Below are positions 2,564 to 45,083 of a stretch of DNA of 45,677 nt, in pieces. The position numbers were made by a program, and so were the translations under genes. The notes under the pieces are model-generated. The model had not been told where the DNA came from, searched no databases, and worked only from the letters and a program-made list of their open reading frames with translations. The stretch is from Candidatus Methanoperedens sp. (GTDB lineage: Archaea > Halobacteriota > Methanosarcinia > Methanosarcinales > Methanoperedenaceae): assembly GCA_028715885.1 (NCBI GenBank), contig JAQUQX010000012.1:1-45677 (forward strand), written 5' to 3'. Numbering within the stretch: position 1 is the first letter of the stretch; each line of letters starts with the position of its first letter.

Positions 2564-3981
2564 AATTTTTCTTCTAATTTGAACGCAGAGGCATTGTTGT
2601 TAGTTCTTTTTCGCCTGAAAAACAGGGGCTTCAACCTGCTAAGAGCATCACCCTCCATGTTTGTGGAAATAATGAGACTATTATTTGTTGTCTGCGCTGC
2701 GCTGCTCATAACCTGGACAACAGGTTGAACATTACCAAACCCGTTTATTGAGATTAGCATGTCGATTCCATCGAGAAAAACCACTGCGTTGTTCGTTTTT
2801 TTCATGAAGTTTATAATTACAATGCTCAGGCGCTTGAGGTCTTTGGGTTTAATGCCCATATCAAATGCCTCATCTGATATCCATACTATCGGTGTGGTGC
2901 AAAGACCATATTTTTCCCTTATCTCTTGCGGATGCATAGTAGAGACAACAAAACCATAAGCTCCGCTTTTAACCGCATCCAGAAAGAGGTCATAACCCGT
3001 ATCTTTTACAAAATACGTACTGCCCGGTCTCAGGTCGTATTTCCGTATTGCCGGTGATGAATCAGGCTTTGGCACCAGAACAAAACATTGTCCAGATATT
3101 TCTTTCCGCAGGAGGCATGTGGATATTTCCGGGCATTCACCGCAGTCTTTGTATCCTCTTTTAGTCATGCATTTATATATCTCGCAGTCCGTATACTTCT
3201 CCCTGTTAAACTTGCAGCCGGGGCATTTATCGTTAATATATTCGGCACACCGGGTGCATTCCACGCCGCAGAAAGATGTAACCGAGACTTCCGGCATTGG
3301 CGTTATACAAAACCCATACTGGTAAACGGCGTATGCGAAAAAGACGCCCATCACCGCTGGCGCAAGTGTTGAGAGCGGGAGAAGATATATGCCATAGAAC
3401 ATGGGCAGTATTAAGTTTGAGATAACCGCAATGAGTACCGCGGAGATGGCGCCTGTTAATATGATTTTCGCCTGCTCTTGCTGTCTGTATTTACTTGTCA
3501 TATAATGTCTCAATAACAAATACACGCCTGCTATACCAAGCAGTCCTGATACAAGGAAGAACTCCTGCATTCTCTCTTTCATTGTGGAAAACATGGCGGT
3601 GTCCAATCCTGATGCGTCGGATGTCCATATCAGGCTCAATAAATAGATGGCTGGTATAATAATCAGGTAGGAGATGGGATTTTTATAAACCTTCTCTATG
3701 TTCATCAGCGAGATCGTAAATAAAACGAATAATGTGAGGGCAATGATGGTGCCGCTTAACTGGAGTTTCGTATAGAGTAATACATCCTTAAGCGACTCAG
3801 TTCCCGCCGCCAATCCTGTGTTGTATGTTCCCACCGACCATATTATAAATGCCAGCATGAGGAGGGCGAAGATCTGGTTGGTACGTTCATGGGGGTTTTT
3901 TTTCAATACATAAATCCCAAGCGCTGTGTAAAGGAATATGGTAAAAAGGGAAATTATTACGCTGAATATGACGCCATTCAT
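2560..3981 (-). CDS. 7TM sensor with Cys-rich domain and C-terminal DUF835
   Basis: A 473-residue three-part protein. Residues 1-225 form seven hydrophobic helices of the 7TM histidine-kinase N-terminal type ('N-P-H-E-R-T-N' after helix 1). Residues 236-300 contain eleven cysteines (238, 242, 245, 253, 256, 266, 271, 280, 283, 289, 299), beginning CGVECTRCAEY and resembling DUF3795 zinc or Fe-S binding segments. Residues about 315-455 match archaeal DUF835, including 'VVFLDGIDMLISINGF' and 'IISTNMEGDAL'. There is no kinase domain, so DUF835 replaces the usual output. The start has a GGAG site (AGGAGTG) upstream of the ATG at 3979-3981. It is coupled to the DUF5658-like gene by ATGA. A membrane receptor reporting a ligand, metal or redox state is inferred. 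Confidence 0.85.
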   Translation of the reverse strand: MNGVIFSVIISLFTIFLYTALGIYVLKKNPHERTNQIFALLMLAFIIWSVGTYNTGLAAGTESLKDVLLYTKLQLSGTIIALTLFVLFTISLMNIEKVYKNPISYLIIIPAIYLLSLIWTSDASGLDTAMFSTMKERMQEFFLVSGLLGIAGVYLLLRHYMTSKYRQQEQAKIILTGAISAVLIAVISNLILPMFYGIYLLPLSTLAPAVMGVFFAYAVYQYGFCITPMPEVSVTSFCGVECTRCAEYINDKCPGCKFNREKYTDCEIYKCMTKRGYKDCGECPEISTCLLRKEISGQCFVLVPKPDSSPAIRKYDLRPGSTYFVKDTGYDLFLDAVKSGAYGFVVSTMHPQEIREKYGLCTTPIVWISDEAFDMGIKPKDLKRLSIVIINFMKKTNNAVVFLDGIDMLISINGFGNVQPVVQVMSSAAQTTNNSLIISTNMEGDALSRLKPLFFRRKRTNNNASAFKLEEKL

Positions 3982-4157
3982 TTTAACACTCCTAACACTC
4001 CTTTATACTGCTACATGCAAATATACTTTATTTATCTTTCTATTTGAGGGGATGTGGGACAAAAATTAAACAAAACAAATATATAGGTAATTTTACATCG
4101 TGTGTAAAATAAAGCATGTTTATAATGGACAAGGACAATACAAAAGCAGGCTAAACA
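3982..4157. promoter_or_regulatory. Divergent promoter region, DUF835 receptor / ccdA
   Basis: This 176-bp gap separates two outward-facing genes. Toward the + strand, an AT-rich box (AAATATATAGG, about 4077-4087) lies some 70-80 bp ahead of the ccdA start. Toward the minus strand, a purine-rich GGAGTG repeated twice immediately precedes the receptor ATG. I see no strong palindrome. Confidence 0.4.
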
Positions 4158-4895
4158 ATGGTTGAACCCTCGGCGCCCTCGATAGTTCTGGTTTTCATAG
4201 CAGGCATAGTGACCATACTCAAGCCGTGCTGCCTTCCGCTTGTCCCTGTAATATTTTCAGGCTCTGGCGGGCACAGGCTGCGACCTGTAGCTATTGTATC
4301 GGGTTTGACCCTCAGCTTTACTGCGATGGGCGTGCTGGTGTCAGCCTTCGGCGCCACTTTCGCAGCTTTTGCTGATTCTTTGCGAAGCATTGCTATTTTA
4401 TTCATAATAGGCATGGGAGCCGTACTCTTTGACGAAGACATAAACATGGAGTTTGTAAAAATATCAGGCGCAATAACACAGGGCATAAGACAGTATTTTG
4501 GCTCCCTGAGCGGCTACTCGTCATTAAATATGCCTGAAGGAGGCATTGCAGGGGGCTTTTTCCTTGGCATGTCCCTTGGCATCCTCTGGATACCGTGCGT
4601 TGGACCGATTCTGGGCGCTGTGCTTGCGTACGTCGCCTCTGTGGGCAATGTCTCCTACGGCGCATGGATGCTGTTCGTTTATTCCATTGGTATGAGCCTG
4701 CCCATGCTTTCCATAGCATACTATGGCAAGAAGGTCACGGGCAGGTACCAGTGGTTTGTGAGGCGGGGACCATTACTTAAAAAACTCTCGGGGCTCGTGC
4801 TTATAGTGATAGGCATTATGCTGCTCTTCAATGTAGATAAACTTATAATTAAAGCGCTATCGCCCTATTTCCCGACCACGGTGTATGGATTATAA
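4158..4895 (+). CDS. ccdA: CcdA/DsbD-type transmembrane thiol-disulfide transporter 1
   Basis: A 245-residue, six-helix protein of the CcdA/DsbD-beta family, which passes electrons across the membrane to reduce extracytoplasmic thiols, for example apocytochrome c CXXCH motifs. The two family cysteines are C24 in 'LKPCCLPLVP' and C147 in 'WIPCVGPILG'. An extra cysteine, C25, follows the first, where most relatives have Val or Ala. The start MVEPSAPSIVLVFIAG matches the start of its paralogue at 9181-9903. It converges on the ccmF cluster. Two CcdA copies in one block suggest different partners, such as the thioredoxin at 7204-7677 and the PCYCGC protein. Family is firm; substrate is inferred. 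Confidence 0.9.
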   Translation: MVEPSAPSIVLVFIAGIVTILKPCCLPLVPVIFSGSGGHRLRPVAIVSGLTLSFTAMGVLVSAFGATFAAFADSLRSIAILFIIGMGAVLFDEDINMEFVKISGAITQGIRQYFGSLSGYSSLNMPEGGIAGGFFLGMSLGILWIPCVGPILGAVLAYVASVGNVSYGAWMLFVYSIGMSLPMLSIAYYGKKVTGRYQWFVRRGPLLKKLSGLVLIVIGIMLLFNVDKLIIKALSPYFPTTVYGL

Positions 4896-13888: not shown

Positions 13889-15214
13889 ATGGTTCCCATG
13901 ACCGATATTTTTGACCTTGCATACAACGCCCTTGAGCTTACCAAAAAAGCTGGGGCGGATGAAGCAGAGATTTTTTGCGTAAAGGGCAGGTCTGTTTCAA
14001 TCGATATCCACAGGGATGCCATCGACCTCGCCAAAGAAAGTATTGTTTCAGGTATTGGTATCAGGGCAATTGTTAACGGAGCAGTGGGGTTTTCGAGCAC
14101 CAATGATGTTGAACGCGTCGAAGAAGCCTGCGTCCTGGCTGTGAAATCCGCAAGGGTAAGGGGCAGCGACCCGCTGTGGTCCGGGCTTCCGGAAAGAAAA
14201 AAACCTGCTCATGTGCGCGGGATTTTTGATAAAAGGCTTGCAAATATCGAAATCGAGTCCTGCATCGATTACGCAGCCGGCATGATTAAAGGAGCAAAGA
14301 CTGCTTCTGTCATGCCCACATCCGGACATTTCTCTTGCGGCAGCGCCGCCAAACTGATTTTGAATTCAAACGGGGTTGAAATAAAAGAAGATGATACAAT
14401 GGTACAGGCGTCAATAGATGCAGTCACAAGAGACGCCCCCATGTCAACTGCTTCCGAATTCGACATGTCAAGGAAACTGGACATTGATTTTTACAGGATA
14501 GGCGAGCGGGCTTCCCTTCTTGCCATGCGCTCCCGGAATGGCGTAAGCACGGAAACGCGCGATTGCGCCGTGCTTCTTGAACCCCTCGCTTTTGCGGATA
14601 TTCTTGAGAATACGTTTGTAACTTCGTTGAATGCCGATAATGTGCAGAAAGGACGCTCAGCCCTTATCGGGAAAATGGGTACAAAAATCACAGCGGATGA
14701 ACTTTCTATTATCGATGACGGGACGCTCGATGGCGGTCTGGGAACATCGAACTCCGACGACGAGGGTACTCCTTCCATGAAGAACGAAGTTGTGAAAAAC
14801 GGTGTGCTGTCCTCGTTCCTTTATGATTGTTATACCGCAGGCAAGGAGAAAAGGGAAAGTACGGGAAACGCTATCCGTTCATCCTTCACTTCCACGCCGT
14901 CGATAGGCATTCGCAACCTTGTGATTGAACATCCTTCATTTGATGTTGTTGCCGAAACGCAGGACGGCGTGATTGTCAATACCGTAATCGGGGCGCATAC
15001 CGCAAACCCGATTTCAGGGGATTTTTCTGTCGAGGCGAGAAATTCGTTTTTGATTAAGAACGGCGAGAGCGCATCGCCCATCAAGTCCATGATGATTTCG
15101 GGGAATATATTCGAGCTGCTTATGAATATAGATGGCATCGGGAAAGATGTCAGGAAAGTGGGGAATGTGATTACGCCGACAGTGAGGGTGGCTAAAATGA
15201 GGGTTGTTGGATAG
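13889..15214 (+). CDS. pmbA: PmbA/TldE-type metalloprotease subunit homologue
   Basis: A 441-residue member of the TldD/PmbA (TldE) family, close to the usual 440-450 length. It shows the N-terminal 'GADEAEIF' strand, 'RAIVNGAVGFSSTND' and the C-terminal 'GDFSVEARNSFLIKNGE' and 'SGNIFELL' blocks. There is no HExxH, so this is the TldE-type partner rather than the zinc-bearing TldD. In bacteria TldD/TldE act together in microcin maturation and antitoxin cleavage; archaeal roles are little known. An alternative start three codons in (ATG at 13898) is equally possible. No tldD gene is in the window. It converges on the Hsp90-like gene with a 10-bp gap. Confidence 0.88.
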   Translation: MVPMTDIFDLAYNALELTKKAGADEAEIFCVKGRSVSIDIHRDAIDLAKESIVSGIGIRAIVNGAVGFSSTNDVERVEEACVLAVKSARVRGSDPLWSGLPERKKPAHVRGIFDKRLANIEIESCIDYAAGMIKGAKTASVMPTSGHFSCGSAAKLILNSNGVEIKEDDTMVQASIDAVTRDAPMSTASEFDMSRKLDIDFYRIGERASLLAMRSRNGVSTETRDCAVLLEPLAFADILENTFVTSLNADNVQKGRSALIGKMGTKITADELSIIDDGTLDGGLGTSNSDDEGTPSMKNEVVKNGVLSSFLYDCYTAGKEKRESTGNAIRSSFTSTPSIGIRNLVIEHPSFDVVAETQDGVIVNTVIGAHTANPISGDFSVEARNSFLIKNGESASPIKSMMISGNIFELLMNIDGIGKDVRKVGNVITPTVRVAKMRVVG

Positions 15215-15224
15215 TATTTTAAAA

Positions 15225-17540
15225 TTAAAATGATGAAATTGTATCAAATCTTACATAGAAACTCCTCTTCCCTTCAACCAACTCAAAGAATCGCTTTAAG
15301 CTATCTGGAACAGGAATAAATATGCGCTTCTTTGTAACAATCGTAGTGGTAGGAAAAATCCCACCTCCTGCAAGGTCACCAGCGTCTTCAAACATCTCAA
15401 TATCATAATATAAGGAAAAACTACCTGATGCATGAGTAAAGATGTAGATTATTCTATGTCCTCCCCATATAATTCTCGTTGTATGGGGGGCAATGAAGAA
15501 GTCGTATTCTTCTCGGAATGCGCGATCAGAAATCGCAAAAAAAAGTTGGAAGTTATTTAATGCAGGATTTCGTTTTTCTACTGCAAGGAGTTTCTTATTG
15601 GTATCCACATCTGTTCTCAAAAATGCTGGAAAAGGTGGAAATATTGGCCCCCCATTTTCTTCTTTGGATGGCTGCACTAGGCTTTCAGCCAGGTCAGGTA
15701 TTTCTGTTTCCATCTTTCCTACGTTACCTTTTGTTATTTCTTGAGTTTGTATCTTCGTAAAAGAATTTGCCTTGGTAACGACATCTTTGAAGTCCACCCT
15801 ACCAGCCATGAAGTCGGAGAACAATGATGTCATTCCGAAATCTTCCATTCTAATTTCAAATAATTCTCTTTTCTGTTTGAGTATCTTCTGGAGAGCTTCA
15901 GCGCCCTCTCTTGTAGAAGACGGCACCCAATTCTGTATCCGAGGATAAATATGTACCCTCACATAATCTTTTATTAATCCATAAAATACATCATATGAGT
16001 CATGATAGCATTTTAAAATGGGCTTGATTGTTGGATGATTTCTCTGAATATATATTTCTACATAACCTTTTCCTGATGATTGTATAATGTATGGAAGATT
16101 ATGGGTTAAATTGGCAAACTTAATTTTAGCGTTCTGGAGTGCATAATCATCTTCAAGAAGGTTCTTTGCTTTGATAACAAAAGACATCTCATCCATGGTA
16201 TATGATTTTTCTGAAAACTCTTGTAATATTTTCGGAGCATCTGTAACTCTTTCTACCTTGCAGAATTGTTGAATGAATGATGATTCAAGTTGTCTTCTTG
16301 GACTTGACCTTGATAGGACTATCAACGGTGTATCGGGGGTTCCATATGTTTCGATAATTGTTTGGTCATTACCTTCGTAATAGTTGTATATTCGCTTCTG
16401 TGAGTGTTCTTTGAGTTCTTCCAATGTCATCTCTTGTCCAGGCTCGATTTTCACTTTTAATTTATTGGCTAGTAATATCCTTCCTGTCGAAAGTATGCGT
16501 GACATAAAAGCAAGGCTCTTGTTGCATATTTCTGATTCAGCGAGTGTGTTGGTTGCACACTCTTCGACTATTTGTATCAATCTCTGTGTTACTTCAACAC
16601 TTTCTCGGCTCAAAGCTTCTCTTCCAGCGGTAGGTGAAATAACTGAAATATTAACGACCCCTCCAAAAGAATAGAATGAACTAATAGGAATAGGCGCCAG
16701 ACCAAAAGAACTTCTTAACCCCCAGAGATGGCCAAAATCCTGTCGCAAACAGATGATTCCCTTGATTACTTCCCCTCCTATGGAGATGTTACTGACCGTT
16801 GCTGAAACTCTGCCAGCGTCATTGCACTGTACCAAAACGTCCGCTTTGATGCCTCCGTACTCGAATCCATTCCAGTTTCGTTGGATTTTGGCAGAGTTAT
16901 CACGATATTTATCCTCTATAGAATTCTGACTTATAATGGTTCCATTCAATTTCAATATAATAGGCAAGTATTGGACATACGGAGTTAGGTAGCTTCGTGC
17001 CTGTTCAAATGTCAATCTTGCGTTCGGATCAAGTACTGTGGTTATAGTTGTCCCGTATTCACCAGTTTGAGAGGTTTTTTCAATCCTTATACAATCTTCG
17101 GAAAGAGAGAGACTTTCTCGTTCAACCTCACTGATTATTCTTTCTTTAGTTTCTATGGATTCCGTCTCCACTTTTAGTTTTGTGCACACCCCAAAATTCG
17201 CCATTGCCCCTATTCCAAAAGTACCTACAACTCCAGATTTCAATGCAAGCTCGGTTCTCTTTCCACTTGACCCCGCCATCCAATAATTTTCTTTTAGAAC
17301 TTTTTCTGACATGCCGATTCCGTTGTCAGAAATTACTATCTTTTCATTATCTATATGCACAATTATTATGCCATTTTCTTGAGGTGACCATTTTCCTCCT
17401 GAATATTGAGCTCTCATTAGGATGGCATCATAGGCATTCTGGATATTTTCTCTCAGTAATGCGTATGGAGAGTCATAAATCTCCTTGGAGAGAACATCTA
17501 GCACTCTCTTGATCTCTATCTGAAACTTGATCTTCTCCAT
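15225..17540 (-). CDS. Hsp90-like (GHKL) ATPase, partner of the phosphoesterase
   Basis: A 771-residue protein with an N-terminal Bergerat-fold ATPase of Hsp90 type. The N-box is 'LLRENIQNAYDAI' (catalytic E31, Mg-binding N35), the G1 box is 'SDNGIGM' (71-77, ATP-contacting D72), the lid glycine motif is 'GVVGTFGIGAMANFG' (103-117), and G-T-T at about 163-165 closes the pocket. The following 600 residues do not resemble the Hsp90 middle or C-terminal domains; the last 150 look like a mixed alpha/beta domain. It is much longer than HATPase kinases and lacks kinase motifs. The ATG follows the phosphoesterase stop with no gap, so the two are tightly coupled. Codons are visibly AT-rich beside pmbA, which suggests transfer. 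A two-gene conflict or defence role is inferred. Confidence 0.85.
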   Translation of the reverse strand: MEKIKFQIEIKRVLDVLSKEIYDSPYALLRENIQNAYDAILMRAQYSGGKWSPQENGIIIVHIDNEKIVISDNGIGMSEKVLKENYWMAGSSGKRTELALKSGVVGTFGIGAMANFGVCTKLKVETESIETKERIISEVERESLSLSEDCIRIEKTSQTGEYGTTITTVLDPNARLTFEQARSYLTPYVQYLPIILKLNGTIISQNSIEDKYRDNSAKIQRNWNGFEYGGIKADVLVQCNDAGRVSATVSNISIGGEVIKGIICLRQDFGHLWGLRSSFGLAPIPISSFYSFGGVVNISVISPTAGREALSRESVEVTQRLIQIVEECATNTLAESEICNKSLAFMSRILSTGRILLANKLKVKIEPGQEMTLEELKEHSQKRIYNYYEGNDQTIIETYGTPDTPLIVLSRSSPRRQLESSFIQQFCKVERVTDAPKILQEFSEKSYTMDEMSFVIKAKNLLEDDYALQNAKIKFANLTHNLPYIIQSSGKGYVEIYIQRNHPTIKPILKCYHDSYDVFYGLIKDYVRVHIYPRIQNWVPSSTREGAEALQKILKQKRELFEIRMEDFGMTSLFSDFMAGRVDFKDVVTKANSFTKIQTQEITKGNVGKMETEIPDLAESLVQPSKEENGGPIFPPFPAFLRTDVDTNKKLLAVEKRNPALNNFQLFFAISDRAFREEYDFFIAPHTTRIIWGGHRIIYIFTHASGSFSLYYDIEMFEDAGDLAGGGIFPTTTIVTKKRIFIPVPDSLKRFFELVEGKRSFYVRFDTISSF

Positions 17541-19022
17541 CTAATTACCTCTGTATTTGAGTTTACCGTTCATTCGTTTAAATGGTTCAGAATTAGCAAT
17601 ATCTTGGTTCTGGCTTAATTCATCAAGAAGCTTTCTCAAATCGGGTAAATTTTTCTTTCGCCAGAGTGCCTCGGATAGATATGTGAATTCCGTTATAGTA
17701 TTTGGCTCTTTGATAAATTGAATACATTCATCATCCATTTCTAATTGTGAAAGGCATTCGATTGTGAGTCTCCGGACAAATGGATTTTCTTGTTCCAAAA
17801 GTTTTAACTTTCTGAGTGCTTCAGGATAATCTTTTTTTGCAACTAAATTTTCCGCCTCTGCTAATTCCTTCAACGAATCCGATTTTGATAGCATCTCTTG
17901 TCCCTTTCCTGTATCCTTATTAATAGTTATAGGTATCTTAATATTCATACAACTTTTATCTCTGTTTTGCCTTATATTTCCAGGCATCCAAATGGGCAAC
18001 CCAAGAGGTTGTTCCACAGCCTTTCTGATGTGGAATTTTAAATCAGTAGAAGAACTGTCTAACTCAATCATGCTGTATTGTCTGGTTTCACCTGAAGGAA
18101 TGTCCTGTTGAGATGCACATAAAGTACCACATCCAAATATTTGCATTGCAATTGTTTGGTCGGCACTGAATTTAACCTCAAAAATATCACTTTTATGCTG
18201 ATGACCATGCAAACCCATCTCAAATCCTTTGTCAATCAAGAATTGCACGATTCTTTCATCCATGAAATCTGACCTTGTTGGAAAACCATGCACGCCGTGA
18301 TGCCAGACTGCAATCTTCGACCAATCATTATATTTTATTTGATTGATATTATTGTGGCAATCGGCCATGCATTCCGGATGAATCATGCCAATGTAGTTAA
18401 GATGGTCATTACAGAAACAGGAATTGAAACCCACGAAGAGCATTTTGTATTCTGGAAATTCAAAAACATCATATTGTTCTTCCGGTTTAAGTGAATAATG
18501 ACGTTGGTTATTGTAGAATGTTGTATAAAATTTTGAAAATGGAAAGAATCTCTGATTATAAAGTTCATAGTCCGATATTTTGTAATACGAATGCTCTCTC
18601 CAACTCCATCGAATATTGCTTCTTGGATTCTTGCAAAGTTCCACAAAGTTTGGTTCAAGATTTTCAAGTTTTTCCATACTTTTTTGTGAATGAGGCCATG
18701 AAACATCATGATTCCCAGGAACTATCACTATTCGGTGTTTGTCTCCATTAAAGAGTTCGTTGCATAATTGACTCAAAAAATCGTTTGCTTCATTATATTG
18801 TTTCTCGATTTCCCGTATAGATAATTCAAAGTCCATGGATGTCCCACAACCTCGAATAATATCTCCACAAACTATCAATATATCAGGTTTCGAAATAGGG
18901 ATTTCTTCTTTATTATATCTTGCAATATCTGAAACAATAGAAGATATAAGAGCTTTATTACTATCAAGTACTGAAGCTCTCTTGTGAAGGTCTGAAAACT
19001 GCATTATAGTTACAATTGACAT
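17541..19022 (-). CDS. Calcineurin-like phosphoesterase with TPR-like tail
   Basis: A 493-residue protein. The metallophosphoesterase core is complete: D11-L-H13, G53-D54, G103-N104-H105-D106, 'VWHHGVHG' (H241/H242) and G271-L-H272-G-H274. These bind two metals and cleave phosphodiesters or phosphomonoesters. After about residue 385 the protein becomes an alpha-helical repeat ('EAENLVAKKDYPEALRKLK', then 'LWRKKNLPDLRKLLDEL') like TPRs, suited to recruiting a partner. The start at 19020-19022 is preferred because a later ATG would remove the first beta strand. It is the first gene of the pair, with an AT-rich TATA-like gap (19023-19079) behind it. Substrate could be nucleic acid, cyclic nucleotide or nucleotide; unknown. 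Confidence 0.88.
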   Translation of the reverse strand: MSIVTIMQFSDLHKRASVLDSNKALISSIVSDIARYNKEEIPISKPDILIVCGDIIRGCGTSMDFELSIREIEKQYNEANDFLSQLCNELFNGDKHRIVIVPGNHDVSWPHSQKSMEKLENLEPNFVELCKNPRSNIRWSWREHSYYKISDYELYNQRFFPFSKFYTTFYNNQRHYSLKPEEQYDVFEFPEYKMLFVGFNSCFCNDHLNYIGMIHPECMADCHNNINQIKYNDWSKIAVWHHGVHGFPTRSDFMDERIVQFLIDKGFEMGLHGHQHKSDIFEVKFSADQTIAMQIFGCGTLCASQQDIPSGETRQYSMIELDSSSTDLKFHIRKAVEQPLGLPIWMPGNIRQNRDKSCMNIKIPITINKDTGKGQEMLSKSDSLKELAEAENLVAKKDYPEALRKLKLLEQENPFVRRLTIECLSQLEMDDECIQFIKEPNTITEFTYLSEALWRKKNLPDLRKLLDELSQNQDIANSEPFKRMNGKLKYRGN

Positions 19023-19079
19023 GACAATTGGTTCCAGTATAAAGTAATTTTAAGATTATGAACAAATGCAAAAATTAGA
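19023..19079 (-). promoter_or_regulatory. AT-rich promoter of the phosphoesterase/Hsp90-like pair
   Basis: The 57-bp gap is strongly AT-rich. Read on the minus strand it has two TATA candidates, CTTAAAATT (about 19046-19054, at a distance that would give a leaderless transcript from the ATG) and TTTATACT (19037-19044). No ribosome binding site precedes the ATG, which fits a leaderless start. The cassette thus has its own promoter and is not obviously read from the upstream inositol phosphate synthase gene. Confidence 0.45.
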
Positions 19080-20144
19080 TTATCCCCTTATAAACTCCTC
19101 AAGCTCTGCCCGCGCCTCGCTCTCCCGCATCTGCTGCGGGGGATGCTTCATGAAATAAGCCGATGCAGGCAAGAGGGACCCTCCGAGCTTCCTGTCGAGA
19201 GCTATTTTTGCCACGCGTATGGCATCCACAACCACGCCCGCGCTGTTGGGACTGTCCTCAACCGAGAGTTTTAAATCAACGTAAGCCGGGACGTCGCCGA
19301 AGAGCTTGAAATCAATCTTCAGGTGGCATATCTTGTTATCATTCAGGCAGTCGATGCACCCGTTGGGACCTGCATACACATACGCATCGTAAGGTATTTG
19401 CGAGGCGACAGATTCGGTTTTTGAGATTTTCTTGGACTTTAACCTCGACTGGTCTGTCATATTACGGAAATCCGTATTCCCGCCGATGTTCAACTGGTAG
19501 GTGCTGTCGATTTTCGCCCCCCTGTCCACAATAATCTGGGTAAGCGCCCGGTGGACAATGGTGGCTCCAACAAGGCTTTTTATATCATCCCCGATTATGG
19601 GAAGCTTTGCTTTCCTGAATTTTTCCGCCCACTGCTTATCTGACGCAATGAAAACCGGTATGCAGTTTATAAATGCGCATCCTGCTTCAAGCGCCTGCGA
19701 AGCGTACCATTTCACCGCCTCTTCCGAACCCACGGGCAGGTAATTTATAAGCACATCGGCTTTCGTTTTCTTTAAGACCGATGCGACATCTACGGGTTTC
19801 TGCTTTGCGTCCACCCTGAAATAATCTTTCATGTGCGGCGCTACGCCGTCGAGAACCCTGCCCTTCATTACCTCAACATCCAATTCAGGCACATCAGAGA
19901 ACTTTTTAGTGCAGTTCGGCTCCGAAAAAATAGCCCCCGACAAATCTTTTCCCACCTTGCGTTTATCAACATCGAATGCAGCCACAGGTTTTATGTCCGA
20001 TATGAGATAGCCGCCAAGAGTATTATGCATCAATCCCGGGACAAGGTCATCAGAGTTATTTACATTTTTATAATATTCAAGTCCCTGAATCAGGGATGAA
20101 GCGCAATTACCTACTCCTGCGATTGCTATACGAATGCCTGCCAT
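19080..20144 (-). CDS. ino1: Inositol-3-phosphate synthase (myo-inositol-1-phosphate synthase)
   Basis: A 355-residue NAD-dependent enzyme of the MIPS family, converting glucose 6-phosphate to myo-inositol phosphate. 'IRIAIAGVGNCASSLIQG' is the NAD-binding start, 'IGDDIKSLVGATIVHR' and 'NIGGNTDFRNM' are MIPS core motifs, and 'SKKISKTESV' carries the catalytic lysines. I place the start at 20142-20144, where a GAGGA site lies just upstream. A longer frame starting at 20201 would overlap the upstream gene by 14 bp and add a tail not seen in the family. It follows archaetidylinositol phosphate synthase, which uses its product, so the two form a lipid head-group operon. Confidence 0.92.
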   Translation of the reverse strand: MAGIRIAIAGVGNCASSLIQGLEYYKNVNNSDDLVPGLMHNTLGGYLISDIKPVAAFDVDKRKVGKDLSGAIFSEPNCTKKFSDVPELDVEVMKGRVLDGVAPHMKDYFRVDAKQKPVDVASVLKKTKADVLINYLPVGSEEAVKWYASQALEAGCAFINCIPVFIASDKQWAEKFRKAKLPIIGDDIKSLVGATIVHRALTQIIVDRGAKIDSTYQLNIGGNTDFRNMTDQSRLKSKKISKTESVASQIPYDAYVYAGPNGCIDCLNDNKICHLKIDFKLFGDVPAYVDLKLSVEDSPNSAGVVVDAIRVAKIALDRKLGGSLLPASAYFMKHPPQQMRESEARAELEEFIRG

Positions 20145-20187
20145 TAGATTTCCTCTTATACCCGCTAAATGATAATCTTCCTCCAAC

Positions 20188-20787
20188 TTAAAAGTTGTCA
20201 TTAGTCCCTGTATTACGGGATTTTAATATTTTCCTGACATGCGCAATTCTCTGGACGACTGTAATAAAAGAAATAATAACTACCAGTAGAATCGCCCGGT
20301 TAACCATGCCGAGAAACGCGCCGATGACAATAATAATCATTCTTACCGGACGTTCCCCGAAACCGACAGATGCATGCGCTCCTGCCGCTTCAGCCCTTGC
20401 TCTCGTGTAGCTGACCATTAACGAGCCTGTAATCGCAAAGGCGCCCATAAACCAGTCCGGGAATGGAGGAATCGCTGCCAGACCGCCGTACATTGCCCCT
20501 ATCAAAACCGCCGCATCTGCAAACCTGTCGCAAACCGAATCCAGAAAGCCGCCAAATCCGGTTATGCGGTTGTTTTCACGTGCAACCTCCCCGTCGAGGG
20601 CGTCAAGAAAGCCGCTGGCGAGAAGAAAAATTCCCGCCAGCAAAACCTCGCGCGATGCAAATAAAAAACCCGATACAAGACTTAACAGGAGTCCGAAAAG
20701 GGTCAATGTGTTCGGGTTTATATCCGTAATTTTTTTTGCAAGGGGTCTTAACGCGCCTCTGGTATATTCTTTTACCTTTTCAAGCAT
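20188..20787 (-). CDS. Archaetidylinositol phosphate synthase (CDP-alcohol phosphatidyltransferase)
   Basis: A 199-residue, roughly six-helix membrane enzyme. The complete CDP-alcohol transferase motif DG-x2-AR-x8-G-x3-D-x3-D is present at D65-G66, A69-R70, G79, D83 and D87 ('DALDGEVAR', then 'GGFLDSVCD'). In archaea this subgroup joins CDP-archaeol to 1L-myo-inositol-1-phosphate, giving archaetidylinositol phosphate. The gene directly precedes inositol phosphate synthase on the same strand, which supports this substrate over serine or glycerol. It is divergent from an aminotransferase gene. Confidence 0.88.
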   Translation of the reverse strand: MLEKVKEYTRGALRPLAKKITDINPNTLTLFGLLLSLVSGFLFASREVLLAGIFLLASGFLDALDGEVARENNRITGFGGFLDSVCDRFADAAVLIGAMYGGLAAIPPFPDWFMGAFAITGSLMVSYTRARAEAAGAHASVGFGERPVRMIIIVIGAFLGMVNRAILLVVIISFITVVQRIAHVRKILKSRNTGTNDNF

Positions 20788-22472: not shown

Positions 22473-23633
22473 CTAAAAATGTTTGTAATCTATAATACGT
22501 CTCACGTCAGCCTCATGCATTGCCGATAAACTATCAATATATTGCCGATAAATTGCCGATAAACCGTATGCTCGTTTCCGGTTGGATGGATTTGCTATGA
22601 CCAGCCAGCCATCTTTGACCCAGTTATTAAGCAGTAAACGGGTCATGCGTTCCGAAAGTCCCAGAGTAGCGGCGACATGTGATGTAGTAACCTGTTCTGC
22701 TCTGGCGAACAGCGCAAGAACAGTCCGCGCCCTGTGGTCAAGACGGCGCAGTTCTTCGGGTTCTGCCTGCATACCCTGCACAGCATAGCGCAGCGCTTCA
22801 TCTTTTGCAGCGGTGAATACCCCGGAAAGCGTTTTGACGAAATATTCAAGCCACGGCGTCAGGTCAGCTTCTGCACGCCCTTCGTAATAGTTATGGTGCG
22901 GATGTACAGCAAGGGAGCGGTAATAGCCTTCCAGGTCACGCGCATGGTGTTCTTCCAGCGAGAAAAATCCATTTAATCCATAGCCGCCGCGGTGCAGTAT
23001 AAATGTCGAAAGTAAACGTGCCGTCCTGCCGTTGCCGTCATAGTAAGGATGAATGGTGACGAACTGGTAATGCACAAGACCGGCTATGAGCGGCACAGGC
23101 AGCCCCTCTTTTTCTGCCCTGTGTACCCACTCGACCAGCGCTGCCATGAGCGCAGGAACATCTCTGGCTTCGGGCGGCAGATAAATTATTGCGCCTGATG
23201 CTGAATCGCGGATGACGTTCTGACCATCACGGTAAGGAGTTGGTTTAGCACGCGCGCCTGTTTCAATGAGCGCATGAAGCCTCTGGATAAGCTCTTCTGT
23301 GAGCGGCATTTTTTTCGCAGCCCATTCCTCCACGCGCAGCAGCGCATTCCAGTAGTTCTTCACTTCGCTGACATCACGCTCCCGCCCGTGGAAATGCGCC
23401 TGTTTCCCCTCGATGACCTGTTGCGCCTCTGCCAGCGTGAGGCGGTTGCCTTCGATGCGTGTGGAATAATGTGTGGAACGTATGCGTGCGCGGCGGCGCA
23501 GTTCAGCTTCTGCTGCGGGCGGCAGGTGCGTCTGCCCGACCACGGCGCGCGCGGCTTCGAGGTCCATGAGCGCGCGGGCGATGGCTGGGGTGAGGGTGTA
23601 GGGAGGGCGCCAGAGAGGACGGGGTTTAGTCAT
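22473..23633 (-). CDS. Fic-domain AMP-transferase with built-in inhibitory helix
   Basis: A 386-residue Fic protein. The catalytic loop is H195-P-Y-Y-D199-G-N-G-R203-T-A-R206, a full HPFx[DE]GNGRxxR match with Tyr for Phe. The N-terminal inhibitory motif [ST]xxxE[GN] is S57-T-R-I-E61-G62, so this is a self-restrained class II-type Fic; E61 is expected to block ATP until displaced. The C-terminal part (about 310-375) is a winged-helix domain ('TTSHVAATLGLSERMTRLLL'), suggesting DNA binding and autoregulation. Fic proteins usually AMPylate target hydroxyls; the target is unknown. The gene is clearly more GC-rich than its neighbours, with GCG and CGC codons favoured, which points to recent acquisition. 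The MTKPRPLW start fits the family. Confidence 0.93.
   Translation of the reverse strand: MTKPRPLWRPPYTLTPAIARALMDLEAARAVVGQTHLPPAAEAELRRRARIRSTHYSTRIEGNRLTLAEAQQVIEGKQAHFHGRERDVSEVKNYWNALLRVEEWAAKKMPLTEELIQRLHALIETGARAKPTPYRDGQNVIRDSASGAIIYLPPEARDVPALMAALVEWVHRAEKEGLPVPLIAGLVHYQFVTIHPYYDGNGRTARLLSTFILHRGGYGLNGFFSLEEHHARDLEGYYRSLAVHPHHNYYEGRAEADLTPWLEYFVKTLSGVFTAAKDEALRYAVQGMQAEPEELRRLDHRARTVLALFARAEQVTTSHVAATLGLSERMTRLLLNNWVKDGWLVIANPSNRKRAYGLSAIYRQYIDSLSAMHEADVRRIIDYKHF
22520..22563. repeat. Three copies of an 11-bp repeat at the 3' end of the fic gene
   Basis: TTGCCGATAAA occurs at 22520-22530, 22542-22552 and 22553-22563; the last two abut. The first two are 22 bp apart. In the protein this gives the near-repeat 'LSAIYRQYIDSLSAM'. 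It may be a slippage-prone end of the gene or relics of an expansion. Confidence 0.7.
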
Positions 23634-23674
23634 GCAGGTCTCCTGAGTTGTTATCAGGCATTAGCACTTGCTTT

Positions 23675-24757
23675 TCAAGCTCTTGCAATTAGGAGAACCT
23701 CCCCATTTTTTTCTTCTTTCTCTTTGCTAAGAACATATTTGTATTTCCTATCTTTTAACTCAACTTCTTGTTTATATTGTTCCAGTAGATTTATTATGAC
23801 TTCTTTTTCAGGTATTCCGGGAGACCTATACGAAACGACCAAAATGCTATCCTGGAACTTTTTAAATAACCTATCAAATGCTTTTTCTATCTCATTCTTA
23901 TTGACCCAGACATTAGATTCTGATTTAAATGGTCTATGCTTATAGGAAAAGTCTATTTTATCATGCCAATTATCGTAATCGACTATTCCCTCCAAGAAAT
24001 GATAAAATTGCTGATAATCCACTCCTACACCTTGCGGAGAAACATAAGGCGTATCAATGTAAACCATATCATAACCATCAGGAACATCGAAAATATCAAA
24101 ATTTAAAGCTTTATTGTGTTTGCCGTTTGAAAATACTGCCTCATTAAATTCCTTACTGAATTTCCTGAAATAATATTGGAATTGTTTATCCCACGTTGCT
24201 TTATTACCAAAACTCCTCGGTACATCTGCAAATCTCACATATAAATTCTTTCTATGAAATAAATTGAAAGGTCTTTTAACCAAACATGACTGTCCAAGCG
24301 CTGCAAAAGCTATTGCTTTTTTATATTTATCTTCTAATTGGTTTATGTTGGTTATCATTATATCGAGGAGGGTATTTTCTTCATCCGTATAATAAATGTC
24401 TTTAAAAGTATCTTGAATAAAAGTTGGGTAGTCAATGCCTTTTTGTTTTGTTAAAATAAACTCTATATCACCATCATTCAACACTACGGAGTTATTTTCT
24501 ATAATAGCCAATGCCACTTGATAGTTAAACCTTAAGATGTCATTGCATGTAACTTCTTTTTGATTCTTCTTTGCATGAAAACCAACGCATGCGGTGCCGC
24601 TGAATGCATCAAGGAAAGTATCAAATTCAAGGTGGCTAATGTTTTTCCAAATCCAATCCACTATTTTCTGTTTACTACCTTGGTATCTAGTCGTAGGAAA
24701 ACTGTAATCGTATGCCTTAACCCCCTTTAAGAGTTGCATTTGGTAATGTTTAGCCAT
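23675..24757 (-). CDS. D12-class adenine-specific DNA methyltransferase
   Basis: A 360-residue N6-adenine methyltransferase of the D12 (Dam/M.EcoRV-like alpha) class. Motif X is 'FPTTRYQGSKQKIVDWI' (20-36), motif I for SAM binding is 'DAFSGTACVG' (50-59) and catalytic motif IV is D235-T-P-Y238, a D-T-P-Y variant of DPPY. The target recognition region lies between motifs I and IV, as usual for the class. It is 52 bp downstream of the restriction endonuclease on the same strand, so the two form a type II restriction-modification pair. It is expected to protect the host site, perhaps the GATATC family (see nuclease). It is AT-rich compared with fic. Confidence 0.9.
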   Translation of the reverse strand: MAKHYQMQLLKGVKAYDYSFPTTRYQGSKQKIVDWIWKNISHLEFDTFLDAFSGTACVGFHAKKNQKEVTCNDILRFNYQVALAIIENNSVVLNDGDIEFILTKQKGIDYPTFIQDTFKDIYYTDEENTLLDIMITNINQLEDKYKKAIAFAALGQSCLVKRPFNLFHRKNLYVRFADVPRSFGNKATWDKQFQYYFRKFSKEFNEAVFSNGKHNKALNFDIFDVPDGYDMVYIDTPYVSPQGVGVDYQQFYHFLEGIVDYDNWHDKIDFSYKHRPFKSESNVWVNKNEIEKAFDRLFKKFQDSILVVSYRSPGIPEKEVIINLLEQYKQEVELKDRKYKYVLSKEKEEKNGEVLLIARA

Positions 24758-24809
24758 AAAGTTTTAGTTGTCTTTTGTTGCATAAAAATGTAACGGTCAT
24801 AAAATTTAT

Positions 24810-25463
24810 TCACTTTAATGAGCGCCCTTTATTTCGCCAAAATTTTAGGAATTCATTCTCCGAATCAAATCCACCTCTTCCATCTTTCAATGCTTGGATG
24901 TTTTTTGCTGAACCTATATGTTTCGTGGTACCTGTTCCAGTGCTTTTAGATGCCATTTTCCATTTAAGATTCACCACGCAATCAATTCCTGATACCATTT
25001 CTTTGCTGTTTTTCCTTGGATCCCATTTATATAAAAACGCAACAATCCAGTGTTCATCAAAATTTCCGTATGGGATACTGCACCCTGCTCTCTTTTCATC
25101 CGGATGGAGAAAATAACCTGCATAACTTCCTATCGTCAAACCAGAAATCCTATCTAGTCCTATTTTTCTGGCTGTTTTTATATCTAAAGCAATTATTTTA
25201 TCTCCAAATATACCTCCTCTAAGTATTGCATCTGGATATTCTCTTGTCGTTGGGGCTCTTATAAGTTCACACTTGTATTTCTTTTTTACAAATTTATCCA
25301 ATATTTCCAGTGCCTTTTGTTCAACAATAGCGGTTATGCAAGTTGAATTCTTGGGGATAGGAATAATATTTTTCCTATCATCAGCAATCCCGATAAAATC
25401 CCACTTGAAATCTGAAAATAATTGTTCTAAATCCTTTTTGAGATTTACTTTTCCACCTAACAT
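24810..25463 (-). CDS. Type II restriction endonuclease related to EcoRV
   Basis: A 217-residue PD-(D/E)xK nuclease that aligns by eye with EcoRV across its length. The active site matches: E48 (EcoRV E45), Y-P-D78 (D74) and A-L-D94-I-K96 (D90/K92). Later blocks also agree: 'IGSYAGYF' against GGYTSF, 'HWIVAFLY' against HWIIGYVY, 'GTGTTKHIGS' against the EcoRV recognition loop GSGNTTNIGS, and 'GGFDSENEFLKFWRN' against GIFDSEDEFLDYWRN. The recognition loop (about 174-182) keeps the Gly/Thr pattern but lacks the first asparagine, so the target may be GATATC or a variant. It is paired with a D12 methyltransferase and divergent from a winged-helix gene, probably its controller. The alignment is from memory. 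Confidence 0.85.
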   Translation of the reverse strand: MLGGKVNLKKDLEQLFSDFKWDFIGIADDRKNIIPIPKNSTCITAIVEQKALEILDKFVKKKYKCELIRAPTTREYPDAILRGGIFGDKIIALDIKTARKIGLDRISGLTIGSYAGYFLHPDEKRAGCSIPYGNFDEHWIVAFLYKWDPRKNSKEMVSGIDCVVNLKWKMASKSTGTGTTKHIGSAKNIQALKDGRGGFDSENEFLKFWRNKGRSLK

Positions 25464-32412: not shown

Positions 32413-32769
32413 ATGAGTTCAGAATTACCCCCGCAGATTCAAAACCAGCTTGCGCAGTTGCAGCAGATACAGCAGCAGGCGCAGTCGCTTGCAGTACAGA
32501 AAAACCAGGTTGAAGTTACTTTGAAAGAGACCGAGCTTGCACTTTCGGAACTTGAAAAACTTGATGCTGACGCCGTTGTTTACAGGGCTATCGGAGATTT
32601 ATTGATAAGAACAGAACGCGATAAAACAAAAGAATCACTCGTCGAAAAAAAAGATACGCTTAGTCTCCGGGCTCAGACCCTTGTGCGCCAGGAAGAACGA
32701 ATCCAGAAGCGATTCCAGCAGTTACAGGAGCAGCTCAAACAGGCAATCGGAACCCCGGTCGCCCAATAA
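32413..32769 (+). CDS. pfdB: Prefoldin subunit beta
   Basis: A 118-residue all-helical protein with two coiled-coil helices joined by a beta hairpin: 'IQNQLAQLQQIQQQAQSLAVQKNQ', then 'LDADAVVYRAIGDLLIRT', then 'ERIQKRFQQLQEQLKQAI'. This is the archaeal prefoldin beta pattern. Six subunits (two alpha, four beta) form a jellyfish-shaped holdase that hands unfolded proteins to the thermosome. AGGTG lies nine bases before the ATG. It is followed after 3 bp by a DHH phosphoesterase gene, so they are probably co-transcribed. Confidence 0.95.
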   Translation: MSSELPPQIQNQLAQLQQIQQQAQSLAVQKNQVEVTLKETELALSELEKLDADAVVYRAIGDLLIRTERDKTKESLVEKKDTLSLRAQTLVRQEERIQKRFQQLQEQLKQAIGTPVAQ

Positions 32770-32772
32770 ACC

Positions 32773-33723
32773 ATGGAGATAGACGAATCCGAATTCTATA
32801 ATCAACTGCTGGATTACAACAATATCCTTTACTTATGCCATCGTAATGCAGACCCGGATGCCCTTGGCAGCGCATTCGCGTTAAAAGAAGCAATCGGGGG
32901 CACTATTGGCGTAATTGAAGGATGCGACCGCGTAGCGTCCCAGATTGCCCATCAACTGGATATCGGGTTTGTCACAAATCCGGCAGGGGATTTTGACCTG
33001 GTGGTCGTAGTGGATACATCCACTCCTGCCCAGCTAAATGGATTCCCGTTAAAGAAATATGCAGTAATTGACCATCATACAACCACCTCATTGAATGATA
33101 ATGCGGTTTTTTATCTTCATCGCAATAAAAGTTCAACTGCTGAGATTGTTCTTGACGTATTGAAGATAATGGGGGCGCCCATAATGGGTCGTACGGCTTT
33201 TGCCCTGATGTCTGGCATAATCACGGATACGGGCAATTTCAGGCATGCAACATCGGATTCATTCAAGGCTGTGGCTGAACTTATTGAACTTAGCGGCATC
33301 GAGTACGGTGAAGTGATTGACATGCTTTCGTCAGTCCCGCAGGATGTTTCCATGCGAATTGCTTTCTTAAAAGCAGCCCAGCGCGCGATGATTGAACGGG
33401 TAGATGACTGGATAATTGTAACATCGCAGGTTAGTTCATTCGGAGGCGCAGCCGCGTCAAGTTTAATCTCGATAGGCGCGGATGTGGCTTTTGTGGCGTC
33501 AAAGAAGGACGATGTGGTTAAGGTGAGCGCCAGAGCGAGGCGAGAAATCCAGAGTGAAGGCGTTAATCTTGCAAAACTGATGGAAGATATAAGCGTAAAA
33601 TTCAAAGGCACAGGCGGAGGTCATGAAGGCGCCGCAGGGATGGACGTGCTCGGAGAGACGGAAAACGTGCTGGTTGCCTGCGTGGAGTATGTAAAAAATT
33701 CTCTTGCAAAACGGCAGGCTTAA
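32773..33723 (+). CDS. DHH-family phosphoesterase (NrnA/RecJ-like)
   Basis: A 316-residue protein. Metal motifs are H23-R-N-A-D27-P-D29, D81 in 'VVVVDTST', and D100-H101-H102 ('VIDHHTT'). A fourth aspartate is in 'GIITDTGNF' and the C-terminal DHHA1 glycine loop is 'GTGGGHEGAAG'. This is the layout of NrnA-type nanoRNases, phosphatases of pAp and cyclic dinucleotide hydrolases. Its length is typical. The position beside prefoldin beta is a conserved archaeal context. Exact substrate (short RNA, pAp or c-di-AMP breakdown products) cannot be told from sequence. Confidence 0.88.
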   Translation: MEIDESEFYNQLLDYNNILYLCHRNADPDALGSAFALKEAIGGTIGVIEGCDRVASQIAHQLDIGFVTNPAGDFDLVVVVDTSTPAQLNGFPLKKYAVIDHHTTTSLNDNAVFYLHRNKSSTAEIVLDVLKIMGAPIMGRTAFALMSGIITDTGNFRHATSDSFKAVAELIELSGIEYGEVIDMLSSVPQDVSMRIAFLKAAQRAMIERVDDWIIVTSQVSSFGGAAASSLISIGADVAFVASKKDDVVKVSARARREIQSEGVNLAKLMEDISVKFKGTGGGHEGAAGMDVLGETENVLVACVEYVKNSLAKRQA

Positions 33724-33728
33724 AAAAA

Positions 33729-35265
33729 TTAAATTTTGTCCTTTAAAAGCTGGTTAATCGCAGCCACCAGCGCTTCCACAGATGCCATCACAATATCTTC
33801 ATTCGTGGCGCGTGCAGAAACCACCCTGCCTTTTTCGTCCTCGACACCGATGATTACTTCTGCAAGCGCGTCAGAACCGCCTGAGATTGTCTCAATCCTG
33901 AAGTCGCGCAGCTTGATTTTATGGTCGCCGAGAATACTGGTTACGGTATTTAGCGCCGCATCGACCGGTCCCACTCCGGTATGAGCCCCGATGCGCTCTT
34001 TCCCTTTCACCATCGCTTTTACGGTGGCGGTGGGAGTTATGATGTTCCCGGTCATAACAGAAACTTCTTTCAGCACGATAACCTGCTCGCCTTTCGGAGT
34101 GCCCATTATCGATTCAGCAATGGCGTAGAGGTCGGCGTCGGTTATGCGCTTCCCCTTGTCGCCTATATCTTTTATGCGCTTGAGTATCTCATTCAACTGC
34201 GTTTCCGTGGGTTTCAGCCCTGCGCTCTCCAGGGATTGCATTACGGCATGTTTACCGGTATGCTTTCCGAGCACGATGCGTCTTTTGTGCCCCACCATCT
34301 CAGGGGTCATAACCCCGGGCTCGAAAGTATCAGTCCTTACCAGCACGCCGTGCGTATGTATGCCGGATTCGTGGGCAAACGCATTATCACCAACTATTGG
34401 CATCGTGGGCGGCATGCGCACCTGGGTGAGCCTCTCCACCAGATGAGAGGTCTCAACAATGTACTGGGTTTTTATATTGGTTTTTGCGCCGTACAGGGAA
34501 TGCAGCCCCATCACCGTCTCAGCGAGGTCGGCATTTCCCGCCCGTTCGCCAAGACCGTTTATGGTGACCTGCACCTGGCTCGCCCCGGCTTCGACCGCTG
34601 CAAGACTGTTTGCCACAGCCAGCCCGAAATCATTGTGGCAGTGCACATCAATCGGTATTTTTACGTTCGATGCAATCTCGTTGATTAATTTATACATCGC
34701 CGAGGGCACGCCCACCCCCACCGTATCCGGCACGTTTATAATATCGCAATGCGCAGATTCTACGCCCTTATATATTTTGAGAAGATAATCCATGTCCGTC
34801 CTTGTGGCATCCATGGCTGAGAACATGCATTTCACCCCATGGTCTTTGATATACTCGACTGCGTCTATTGCCATCCTGTAGACCTCGTCCCTGCTCTTTT
34901 TAATCGTTGATATCCGCTGGACATCAGATGTGGAAACAAAAGTATGCACCATGTCCACGCCGCAGTCAAGGCATGTATCTATATCGGATTTGATTACCCT
35001 TGCCAGCCCGCATACCTGTAAATTCAGTCCTGCATCGGCTATATTCTTCACTGAAGTCTTTTCCCCTTCCGAAGACATCGGGAAACCCGCTTCAATGATA
35101 TCGACTCCCAGTTTATCGAGCTGCTGCGCGATGAGAAATTTATCTTCCTGGGTGAGCGATACGCCGGGAGTCTGCTCCCCATCGCGGAGAGTGGTATCAA
35201 AAATACTTATTTTCTTGTTCCGGAGCGATTCAATGGTGTAAAAGACGATCCCTCACGTTTGTCAT
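33729..35265 (-). CDS. Citramalate/2-isopropylmalate synthase, start codon unclear
   Basis: An acetyl-CoA-dependent alpha-keto acid condensing enzyme of the LeuA/CimA family. It has a TIM barrel with '[12 protein letters not shown]', '[12 protein letters not shown]' and 'GKHTGKHAV', and a C-terminal regulatory LeuA-dimer domain (about the last 120 residues). The catalytic '[12 protein letters not shown]' is encoded at 35163-35198 in the same frame, so the protein must begin upstream of the first in-frame ATG (35078). Yet this frame has no ATG, GTG or TTG between the TGA at 35253-35255 and that motif. The TATA box (TTTATACA, about 35293-35300) and an ATG at 35263-35265, out of frame by one, suggest a single-base indel near 35232-35252, or a non-standard start such as ATT at 35232-35234. 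LeuA and CimA cannot be separated here. Confidence 0.85.
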
Positions 35266-43987: not shown

Positions 43988-44261
43988 CTGTGCTCAATTG
44001 GGTGAATTCTTTTATTTGTGTAAAAACCTGTGTATTAATTCATTTTAAATCAAACCCGGTCTTACGGTAAATAAAGATTTTTAAACTTTTATTTACAAAA
44101 ATAAGAATAATTTAAGGTTTTAATTTTAAAAAATCAAAAAATACATTCTAATTTTAGTTTTAAATCATTAGTAAATATTATTTATTATAATACAACTGTA
44201 CAATTTTTTATTTATGAAGAGAATTTCGAGAGTAAAATATATATCTTATTAAAATTAATTA
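43988..44261. other. AT-rich intergenic region without a recognisable gene
   Basis: About 270 bp of strongly AT-rich sequence with runs of A and T. Near the right end, AAAATATATATCTTATT (about 44236-44252) is a TATA candidate for the small membrane protein. No palindrome or repeat stands out. Confidence 0.5.
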
Positions 44262-44474
44262 ATGTTGAATGAAATGACTGAGAGCATTATGCTAAAACCT
44301 TTTATGGTTTTAGTTTTCATGACAGGCGCAGTAATAAAAAGTTTGAGTCTGGTATTTAATTACAATTTCAGCGATACGATTATAGTAGTTATCTCCATAT
44401 TTTCCTTAGTCAGCCTGACACTGATATTTTATTATATATCTATAAAAAATTTCCCCGGTACAATTAAAAAGTAG
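44262..44474 (+). CDS. Small two-helix membrane protein, unknown
   Basis: A 70-residue hydrophobic protein with two helices (about 12-32 and 38-58) and a basic end ('NFPGTIKK'). A TATA-like box lies about 20-25 bp before the first ATG; a second ATG four codons in (44274) would suit a leaderless start. It has no recognised family. The setting, next to the four-helix signalling-type membrane gene at 44533-44904, is the only clue. An AT-rich chance frame cannot be excluded. Confidence 0.45.
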   Translation: MLNEMTESIMLKPFMVLVFMTGAVIKSLSLVFNYNFSDTIIVVISIFSLVSLTLIFYYISIKNFPGTIKK

Positions 44475-44532
44475 TTGTTAAATCGATTCCTGCATAATTA
44501 TAACAGGTTGAATATGTGAAAGTATCAAAAAT

Positions 44533-44904
44533 TTAAGGTTCAAACGCTTTTGGGGAATGCGTACTTATAAACACGAAATAGCTATATATCGCGTGGATGA
44601 AAGCCAATAGAAAGATGACCTGGGTTATCTCTAACATATAGTATTTATTAAGCATCTCTCCTGTTCTGGTGAACAAAACCATAAATTTGGTTACTGCATT
44701 TAAGGCAAATGCGGCTCCAGCAATCGATATATACGTCCATGTCTGTTGAGTAATGGCATGATTGAGAAAAATTCTTGCTTTTAGTAAGTCTCTATTCAGT
44801 CTTTGCATGTTGAAAATGACCAGTCCACTAATCAGGACAATAAGTGTCGCTGCACATACGTTAAATATCTCCATAAATATTTCAATATAGCTCATCGCAA
44901 ACAT
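44533..44904 (-). CDS. Small four-helix membrane protein, paralogue of the gene at 140-490
   Basis: A 123-residue protein with four hydrophobic helices (about 12-32, 55-75, 76-92 and 93-112). Between helices 1 and 2 it carries 'LLKARIFLNHAITQQTWTY', which corresponds to 'IVKARIFLDK...WIY' in the copy at the left end of the window, followed by the same 'AGA' turn. Overall identity is low but layout and length agree, so the two share ancestry. Two start codons (M1 and M4) are possible. No enzyme motif. It stands next to a small two-helix protein and tRNA-Lys, not next to KaiC or roadblock genes, so its context differs from copy 1. Confidence 0.75.
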   Translation of the reverse strand: MFAMSYIEIFMEIFNVCAATLIVLISGLVIFNMQRLNRDLLKARIFLNHAITQQTWTYISIAGAAFALNAVTKFMVLFTRTGEMLNKYYMLEITQVIFLLAFIHAIYSYFVFISTHSPKAFEP

Positions 44905-45009
44905 TGCAACCCTTCACTTGTTTTATGTGATACTATTGTTTATAGATTCTGGTTGTGGCTGCGAAATGTATATATTAAGATAACATTATTAGAGAAAAGC
45001 CCTTTTTAT

Positions 45010-45083
45010 GGGCTGGTAGCTTAGACAGGCAGAGCGTCGGACTCTTAATCCGACGGCCGTGGGTTCAAATCCCTCCCAGCCCG
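45010..45083 (+). tRNA. tRNA-Lys (anticodon CTT)
   Basis: A 74-nt cloverleaf. Acceptor stem GGGCTGG (45010-45016) pairs perfectly with CCAGCCC (45076-45082), with G as discriminator. The anticodon stem TCGGA/TCCGA encloses the loop CTCTTAA, anticodon CTT, so it reads AAG lysine codons. The T arm is GTGGG-TTCAAAT-CCCTC with one mismatch. CCA is not encoded. A TATA-like GTATATATTA lies about 40 bp upstream and a short T-run (CTTTTG) follows the gene. Confidence 0.95.

Follow-up and report, generated by a model that had tools for sequence, protein, structure and literature searches.

What does a metallophosphoesterase (MPE) do beside an Hsp90-like ATPase, in a two-gene cassette lodged between housekeeping genes of the archaeon Candidatus Methanoperedens sp. 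(assembly GCA_028715885.1)? The window is the whole stretch of DNA analysed, 45,677 nucleotides of contig JAQUQX010000012.1, and both genes lie on its minus strand, transcribed from 19022 to 15225. Gene 1 (17541-19022) encodes a calcineurin-like MPE of 493 amino acids, the predicted effector, and gene 2 (15225-17540) encodes an Hsp90/HtpG-like GHKL ATPase of 771 amino acids, the predicted switch or chaperone. The favored answer, given a probability of about 0.6, is a two-gene conflict module that moves laterally and is most likely antiviral, in which an Hsp90-family ATPase is joined to an MPE effector of the DS-8/DS-9 kind. It is probably an undescribed immune module because the pair travels across archaea, bacteria, plasmids and at least one virus and because kin of the MPE are anti-phage proteins. 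A defense role is supported but indirectly.

A phosphoesterase related to anti-phage effectors and a divergent Hsp90 relative

The MPE matches Pfam PF00149 (Metallophos, 2e-13) above the cut-off. A preliminary description of this DNA, made from the sequence alone, reported a complete active site followed by a TPR tail, and both claims needed some correction. D11/H13, G53-D54, G103-N104-H105-D106, W240-H241-H242 and H274/H276 are invariant in nine homologues, but the last motif is G273-H274-Q-H276 and the H272 assigned to it is variable, being Phe in two homologues. The helical tail (residues ~375-493; 17541-17900, minus strand) is seen in an AlphaFold2 model with a mean pLDDT of 83.8 (mostly 80-93 in the tail). 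About three helical hairpins are predicted in residues 375-491 and no Pfam TPR model is matched; the tail is probably TPR-like.

By sequence the MPE belongs with the effectors of DS-8 and DS-9, two anti-phage systems that have been tested. Models of both are matched below their cut-offs, DS9_1 by all nine members and DS8 by eight of the nine, with the DS8 match covering the whole MPE domain; the score against the DS-9 model NF053862 is 51 bits (cut-off 420). Mutation of the metallophosphatase site abolished phage defense in both DS-8 and DS-9 (PMC13092281). DS-9, a DefensePredictor system of DS-9A and a HAD phosphatase, likewise consists of two genes of which the first encodes a related metallophosphatase, but its partner is the HAD phosphatase whereas here the partner is an Hsp90-like ATPase. 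DS-8, a single metallophosphatase-NACHT protein, also couples a related metallophosphatase effector to an ATP-driven switch; there the switch is a NACHT P-loop NTPase fused to the effector, while the one proposed here is a separate Hsp90-type GHKL protein. Membership of either system was rejected since the pair has neither a NACHT fusion nor a HAD phosphatase partner. A 1443-amino-acid multidomain protein on a Nostoc plasmid (L028, 3397-7728) shares the MPE domain (hhalign, 3e-36) and is flanked by NACHT genes, recalling DS-8.

By fold, the MPE is nearest to YydB (in the integrative YydD-YydB model 9a6c), then to Lmo2642, SMPDL3B and purple acid phosphatases, and it also resembles Mre11/SbcD among others. 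YydD-YydB is presumably another phosphoesterase-ATPase pair. Together, this best match and the resemblance to Mre11/SbcD are consistent with a module like Mre11-Rad50, in which the MPE would cut invading DNA and the ATPase would act as a DNA-remodeling clamp, as in SMC-type anti-plasmid systems. Such a module is quite improbable, as the ATPase is of the Hsp90 type and not the ABC/SMC type, SMPDL3B and purple acid phosphatases match the MPE better than Mre11 does, and a DNA-binding domain was not found.

The ATPase opens with a Bergerat ATP-binding domain (residues 1-200; 16941-17540, minus strand), recognized from invariant columns and from matches to Hsp90 chains in the PDB. HATPase_c_3 (5.4e-10 in the window protein) is present in 11/11 homologues, in which E31, N35, D72/G74/G76 and the lid G103-G117 are conserved and nearly all invariant, as the earlier reading of the site had proposed. 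That reading left about 600 residues unassigned, of which residues ~200-427 now prove to be an Hsp90-type middle domain (~201-427; 16260-16940, minus strand). The hhalign comparison with HtpG (99.4%, E 6e-22) runs through residues 1-427, the N-terminal and middle domains, and sets the HtpG catalytic loop LNVSRE against the invariant PTAGRE of the ATPase, with R307 and E308 invariant. The last ~345 residues (15225-16259, minus strand) are still without assignment; they are conserved in the family, with blocks PHTTRIIWG, LYYDIE and VRFD, and no Pfam domain was found there in the homologues. The predicted structure (pLDDT 80) has its best Foldseek matches in TRAP1, Hsp90 and HtpG (E down to 5e-24). 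As regards a C-terminal dimerization domain of the Hsp90 kind, the Foldseek alignments span 620-690 columns with TM scores of only 0.37-0.48 by query, and the hhalign match stops at residue 427.

The ATPase is a divergent paralogue in the Hsp90/HtpG family and not HtpG itself. It falls under the curated HtpG cut-off (64 bits versus 371; for PRK14083, 84 versus 455). With HtpG, Hsp90 and TRAP1 it has in common the N-terminal ATP domain and a middle domain with the catalytic arginine loop. Unlike them, it is always in an operon with an MPE, is mobile instead of core and carries a long family-specific C-terminal part, and its identity to them (~25-36%) is confined to the N-terminal domain. The preliminary description had pointed to MORC/Hsp90-like ATPases. 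A MORC assignment was dropped since the closest relatives by PDB and Foldseek matches and by hhalign are Hsp90/HtpG proteins and the operon partner is always an MPE. MORC/paraMORC and VcSduA are also GHKL ATPases of conflict systems, but they belong to other GHKL families and associate with helicases, methylases and nucleases rather than with an MPE.

Insertion, spread and a virus-borne copy

The cassette is a clean insertion. Its site is empty in 11 of 20 same-genus genomes, where the flanking genes converge directly with their stop codons 0 to ~30 bp apart; in another seven the two genes were not found side by side. Compared with the empty site, the inserted segment is 3865 bp long (15215-19079, no strand assigned) and lies between a PmbA/TldD-type gene (13889-15214, plus strand) and an inositol-phosphate synthase gene (19080-20201, minus strand). 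Neither terminal repeats nor a target-site duplication turned up around the inserted segment. The layout agrees with what was first described, in that the MPE stop codon TAG (17541-17543) is followed by the ATPase ATG with no gap, 10 bp (15215-15224) separate the cassette from one neighbor, and coding GC content is 37.1% versus 48.8% and 48.1% in the two flanking genes. The gap on the other side is 57 bp (19023-19079, minus strand) and contains a TATA-like TTTATA ~20 bp ahead of the MPE ATG, a possible archaeal promoter, so that a separate promoter is plausible but putative.

Two of the 20 same-genus genomes have different short genes between the TldD-type gene and the inositol-phosphate synthase gene. 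One slot (L177, 255-918) is filled by two open reading frames of 106 and 116 amino acids, possibly a toxin-antitoxin pair, and the other (L176, 4944-5993) by a single frame of 349 amino acids, hinting that the slot is a small insertion hot spot.

The pair is rare and patchily distributed. It is not a core feature of the lineage, being present in 0/99 relatives; the full-length ATPase was found neither in these 99 nor in the other 392 genomes sampled from the phylum of the window archaeon. Partial matches in Methanosarcinales (E 1e-4 to 1e-23) cover the N-terminal domain only and were set aside as other GHKL proteins. Most short MPE matches in relatives, which cover only residues ~35-135, were likewise set aside; they look like members of the DNA polymerase II small subunit family. 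Scanning the genome collection with one sequence returned no matches, and the homologues came from an alignment-based scan. Full-length homologues, 31-66% identical, are present in Proteobacteria and Bacteroidota, in two plasmid lineages and on IMG/VR contigs. The genome scan placed the ATPase in Methylobacter, Rhizobium, Oceanibaculum, Rhodospirillaceae and three Bacteroidota (one copy cut by a contig end), and the bacterial hosts of the pair include Alpha- and Gammaproteobacteria. Elsewhere the pair occurs in about one per 200-400 genomes: the class of the Rhizobium host (385 genomes) has one intact copy, already known, and one degenerate fragment (G533), and one Bacteroidota order (393 genomes) has two copies, both already known. 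Four of 72,556 plasmids have the pair, three of which match identically and are from P. aeruginosa; the conjugative plasmid carriers are pPUV-9 and that of Rhizobium sp. 007. No full-length ATPase was found among 50,697 phage records.

The two genes form one co-transmitted unit. Wherever the upstream sequence could be read (thus leaving aside G533 and the ATPases at contig edges in L111 and L112), the ATPase is directly preceded by an MPE, which abuts it or overlaps it by a few bases, in 12 of 12 copies with the window counted. In the Methylobacter copy a frameshift breaks the MPE in two. Pairwise identities of the MPE and the ATPase correlate (r = 0.90, Mantel p = 1e-4, nine taxa). The two-gene unit moves horizontally, as shown by the empty sites, the GC contrast, the patchy rarity and the carriage on plasmids.

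The closest relative of the cassette, at 66% and 62% protein identity, is on a 43-kb IMG/VR contig (3300031876, here L110). This contig is a tailed virus with genes for terminase, portal, head protease, cement/scaffold and major head proteins, and its copy of the cassette lies between the terminase and portal genes. The DNA similarity of window and virus (70%) is limited to the cassette. Between the archaeal and viral copies, nonsynonymous divergence (dN) is 0.21-0.24 and synonymous divergence (dS) is saturated; therefore, both proteins are under purifying selection. Among 60 relatives searched, distant homologues of the viral portal protein were found only within the genus of the window archaeon, in five genomes, which hints that the host of the virus is related to the window archaeon.

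In eukaryotes, PP5, a helical-repeat phosphatase of the metallophosphoesterase superfamily, works with Hsp90. An Hsp90-type protein encoded with a helical-tailed phosphoesterase recalls this partnership, and the fold matches include 8gae and 8gft. The pair might thus be a PP5-Hsp90-like chaperone-phosphatase unit for stress or housekeeping, acting on cellular phosphoproteins and having no role in conflict. This is very unlikely given the extremely patchy spread, the empty sites in relatives and the carriage by a virus and plasmids. In addition, the sequence of the window ATPase has no MEEVD-like tail. The likeness to PP5-Hsp90 is one of analogy only, since the TPR of PP5 is N-terminal and binds MEEVD whereas the tail of the MPE is C-terminal and MEEVD is absent.

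Defense, counter-defense and a proposed mechanism

Some copies have defense genes as neighbors. One (L031) is next to Septu and a patatin-like protein, another (L032) is next to Lamassu, and the copy on pPUV-9 is next to an ABC three-component system and Fic. The window adds EcoRV-type restriction-modification genes and a Fic gene close to its own cassette. PADLOC matches account for five of 20 neighboring genes, all from two of six loci, compared with one (a UvrD-type helicase) among 20 control genes around housekeeping htpG loci; enrichment in defense islands is therefore suggestive and not significant. An antiviral module is favored because DS-8 and DS-9 need the phosphatase site for defense and because defense genes adjoin the cassette. 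The conflict role first proposed for the pair is thus kept, now resting on the kinship of the MPE with DS-8/DS-9, the insertion and patchy spread, the defense neighbors and the viral copy, while a MORC-type ATPase is given up and the suggested coupling of an ATP-gated sensor to an effector is hypothetical. None of the outcomes that the preliminary description had named as refuting was observed: the homologues lie together, the pair is absent from the core genomes of relatives, and the databases and open papers searched gave no named system with both domains.

Several points weigh against the antiviral module. The neighbor enrichment comes from two loci and is suggestive only, several copies (L027, L033-L035 and L110) have no recognized system beside them, and the NCBIfam DS-8/DS-9 scores are far under the equivalog cut-offs. 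Carriage by a virus and plasmids also fits counter-defense, in which viruses and plasmids would use the pair to eliminate the immune signals of the host (e.g., cyclic nucleotides) or its other defenses and the Hsp90-like protein would stabilize the MPE. The position of one cassette among the packaging genes of a tailed virus and of others on conjugative plasmids accords with this explanation, for which there is also a precedent in the mycobacteriophage metallophosphoesterase Gp48, reported to undermine the antiviral immunity of its host (PMC12287305). However, cellular chromosomes also have copies, which lie among core genes or next to Septu and Lamassu, the phage records have no full-length ATPase, and the closest functionally tested kin of the MPE, DS-8 and DS-9, protect against phage. 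Counter-defense is accordingly judged unlikely.

For the antiviral module, we infer a physical complex, a direction of gating, a substrate and a trigger as follows. A dimer of the Hsp90-like protein would grip the helical tail of the MPE and so keep the enzyme inactive or immature. A cue from infection would alter the ATP-driven clamp of the dimer, and the MPE, released or matured, would hydrolyze a phosphodiester (a nucleotide signal, nucleoside triphosphates or nucleic acid), which would stop the infection or kill the cell. The wider proposition has two parts: that a prokaryotic immune effector has an Hsp90-class chaperone as its dedicated ATP-driven switch, in an undescribed system common to archaea, bacteria and viruses, and that such a switch is, by analogy, mechanistically parallel to the Hsp90-TPR-phosphatase or Hsp90-NLR pairs of eukaryotes. 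Taken jointly, these are tentative and stand somewhat below even odds.

Chaperones that set the threshold of an effector, the idea applied here, are known from MoxR-vWA ternary systems and SecB-type toxin-antitoxin-chaperone systems (PMC7159879), but those use AAA+ MoxR or SecB whereas the present one would use an Hsp90-type protein. The words Hsp90, GHKL and HATPase are absent from that survey of chaperone-gated conflict systems. No named system with the same two domains was found in PADLOC 2.0, NCBIfam or the open papers searched, and neither the ATPase family nor the pair has a model in PADLOC 2.0, NCBIfam (June 2026) or PHROGs. Full-text searches of open papers gave no description of the pair; preprints and DefenseFinder models were outside this scope and may hold one. 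The pair is not named among the titles and abstracts listed for P. aeruginosa hotspot systems, and V. cholerae WonAB/GrwAB was considered and found irrelevant to it. If the proposal is correct, Hsp90-type machines would join NACHT, AAA+, SMC and other ATP switches of prokaryotic immune effectors, and the poorly understood DS-8/DS-9 phosphoesterase effectors would gain a third, separable control partner, making it easier to ask what such phosphoesterases cut and what restrains them. It would also provide a testable microbial counterpart to the Hsp90-dependent immunity of plants and animals, and show such a module moving among archaea, bacteria and viruses.

Other features of the window

A second probable defense cluster (22473-25463) lies 3-6 kb from the cassette and consists of a SoFic-like Fic gene (22473-23633), a D12 adenine methylase gene (23675-24757) and an EcoRV-type restriction endonuclease gene (24810-25463). 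The endonuclease gene and most of the methylase gene are in AT-rich DNA (32-34% GC). Fic-type proteins are encoded within ~15 kb of several cassettes, possibly by coincidence; besides the Fic gene of the window, these are the ones in L189 (Fic at 32681-34213) and L129 (Fic at 3729-4775, assigned by eye only). Other genes of the window encode coenzyme F430 synthase, archaetidylinositol phosphate synthase, an MqnC-type protein of the menaquinone pathway and cytochrome c heme lyase, a set that suggests a methane oxidizer like Methanoperedens. Near the end of the window, positions 44001-45000 have a GC content of 29% and adjoin a tRNA-Lys gene (45010-45084), possibly marking another insertion.

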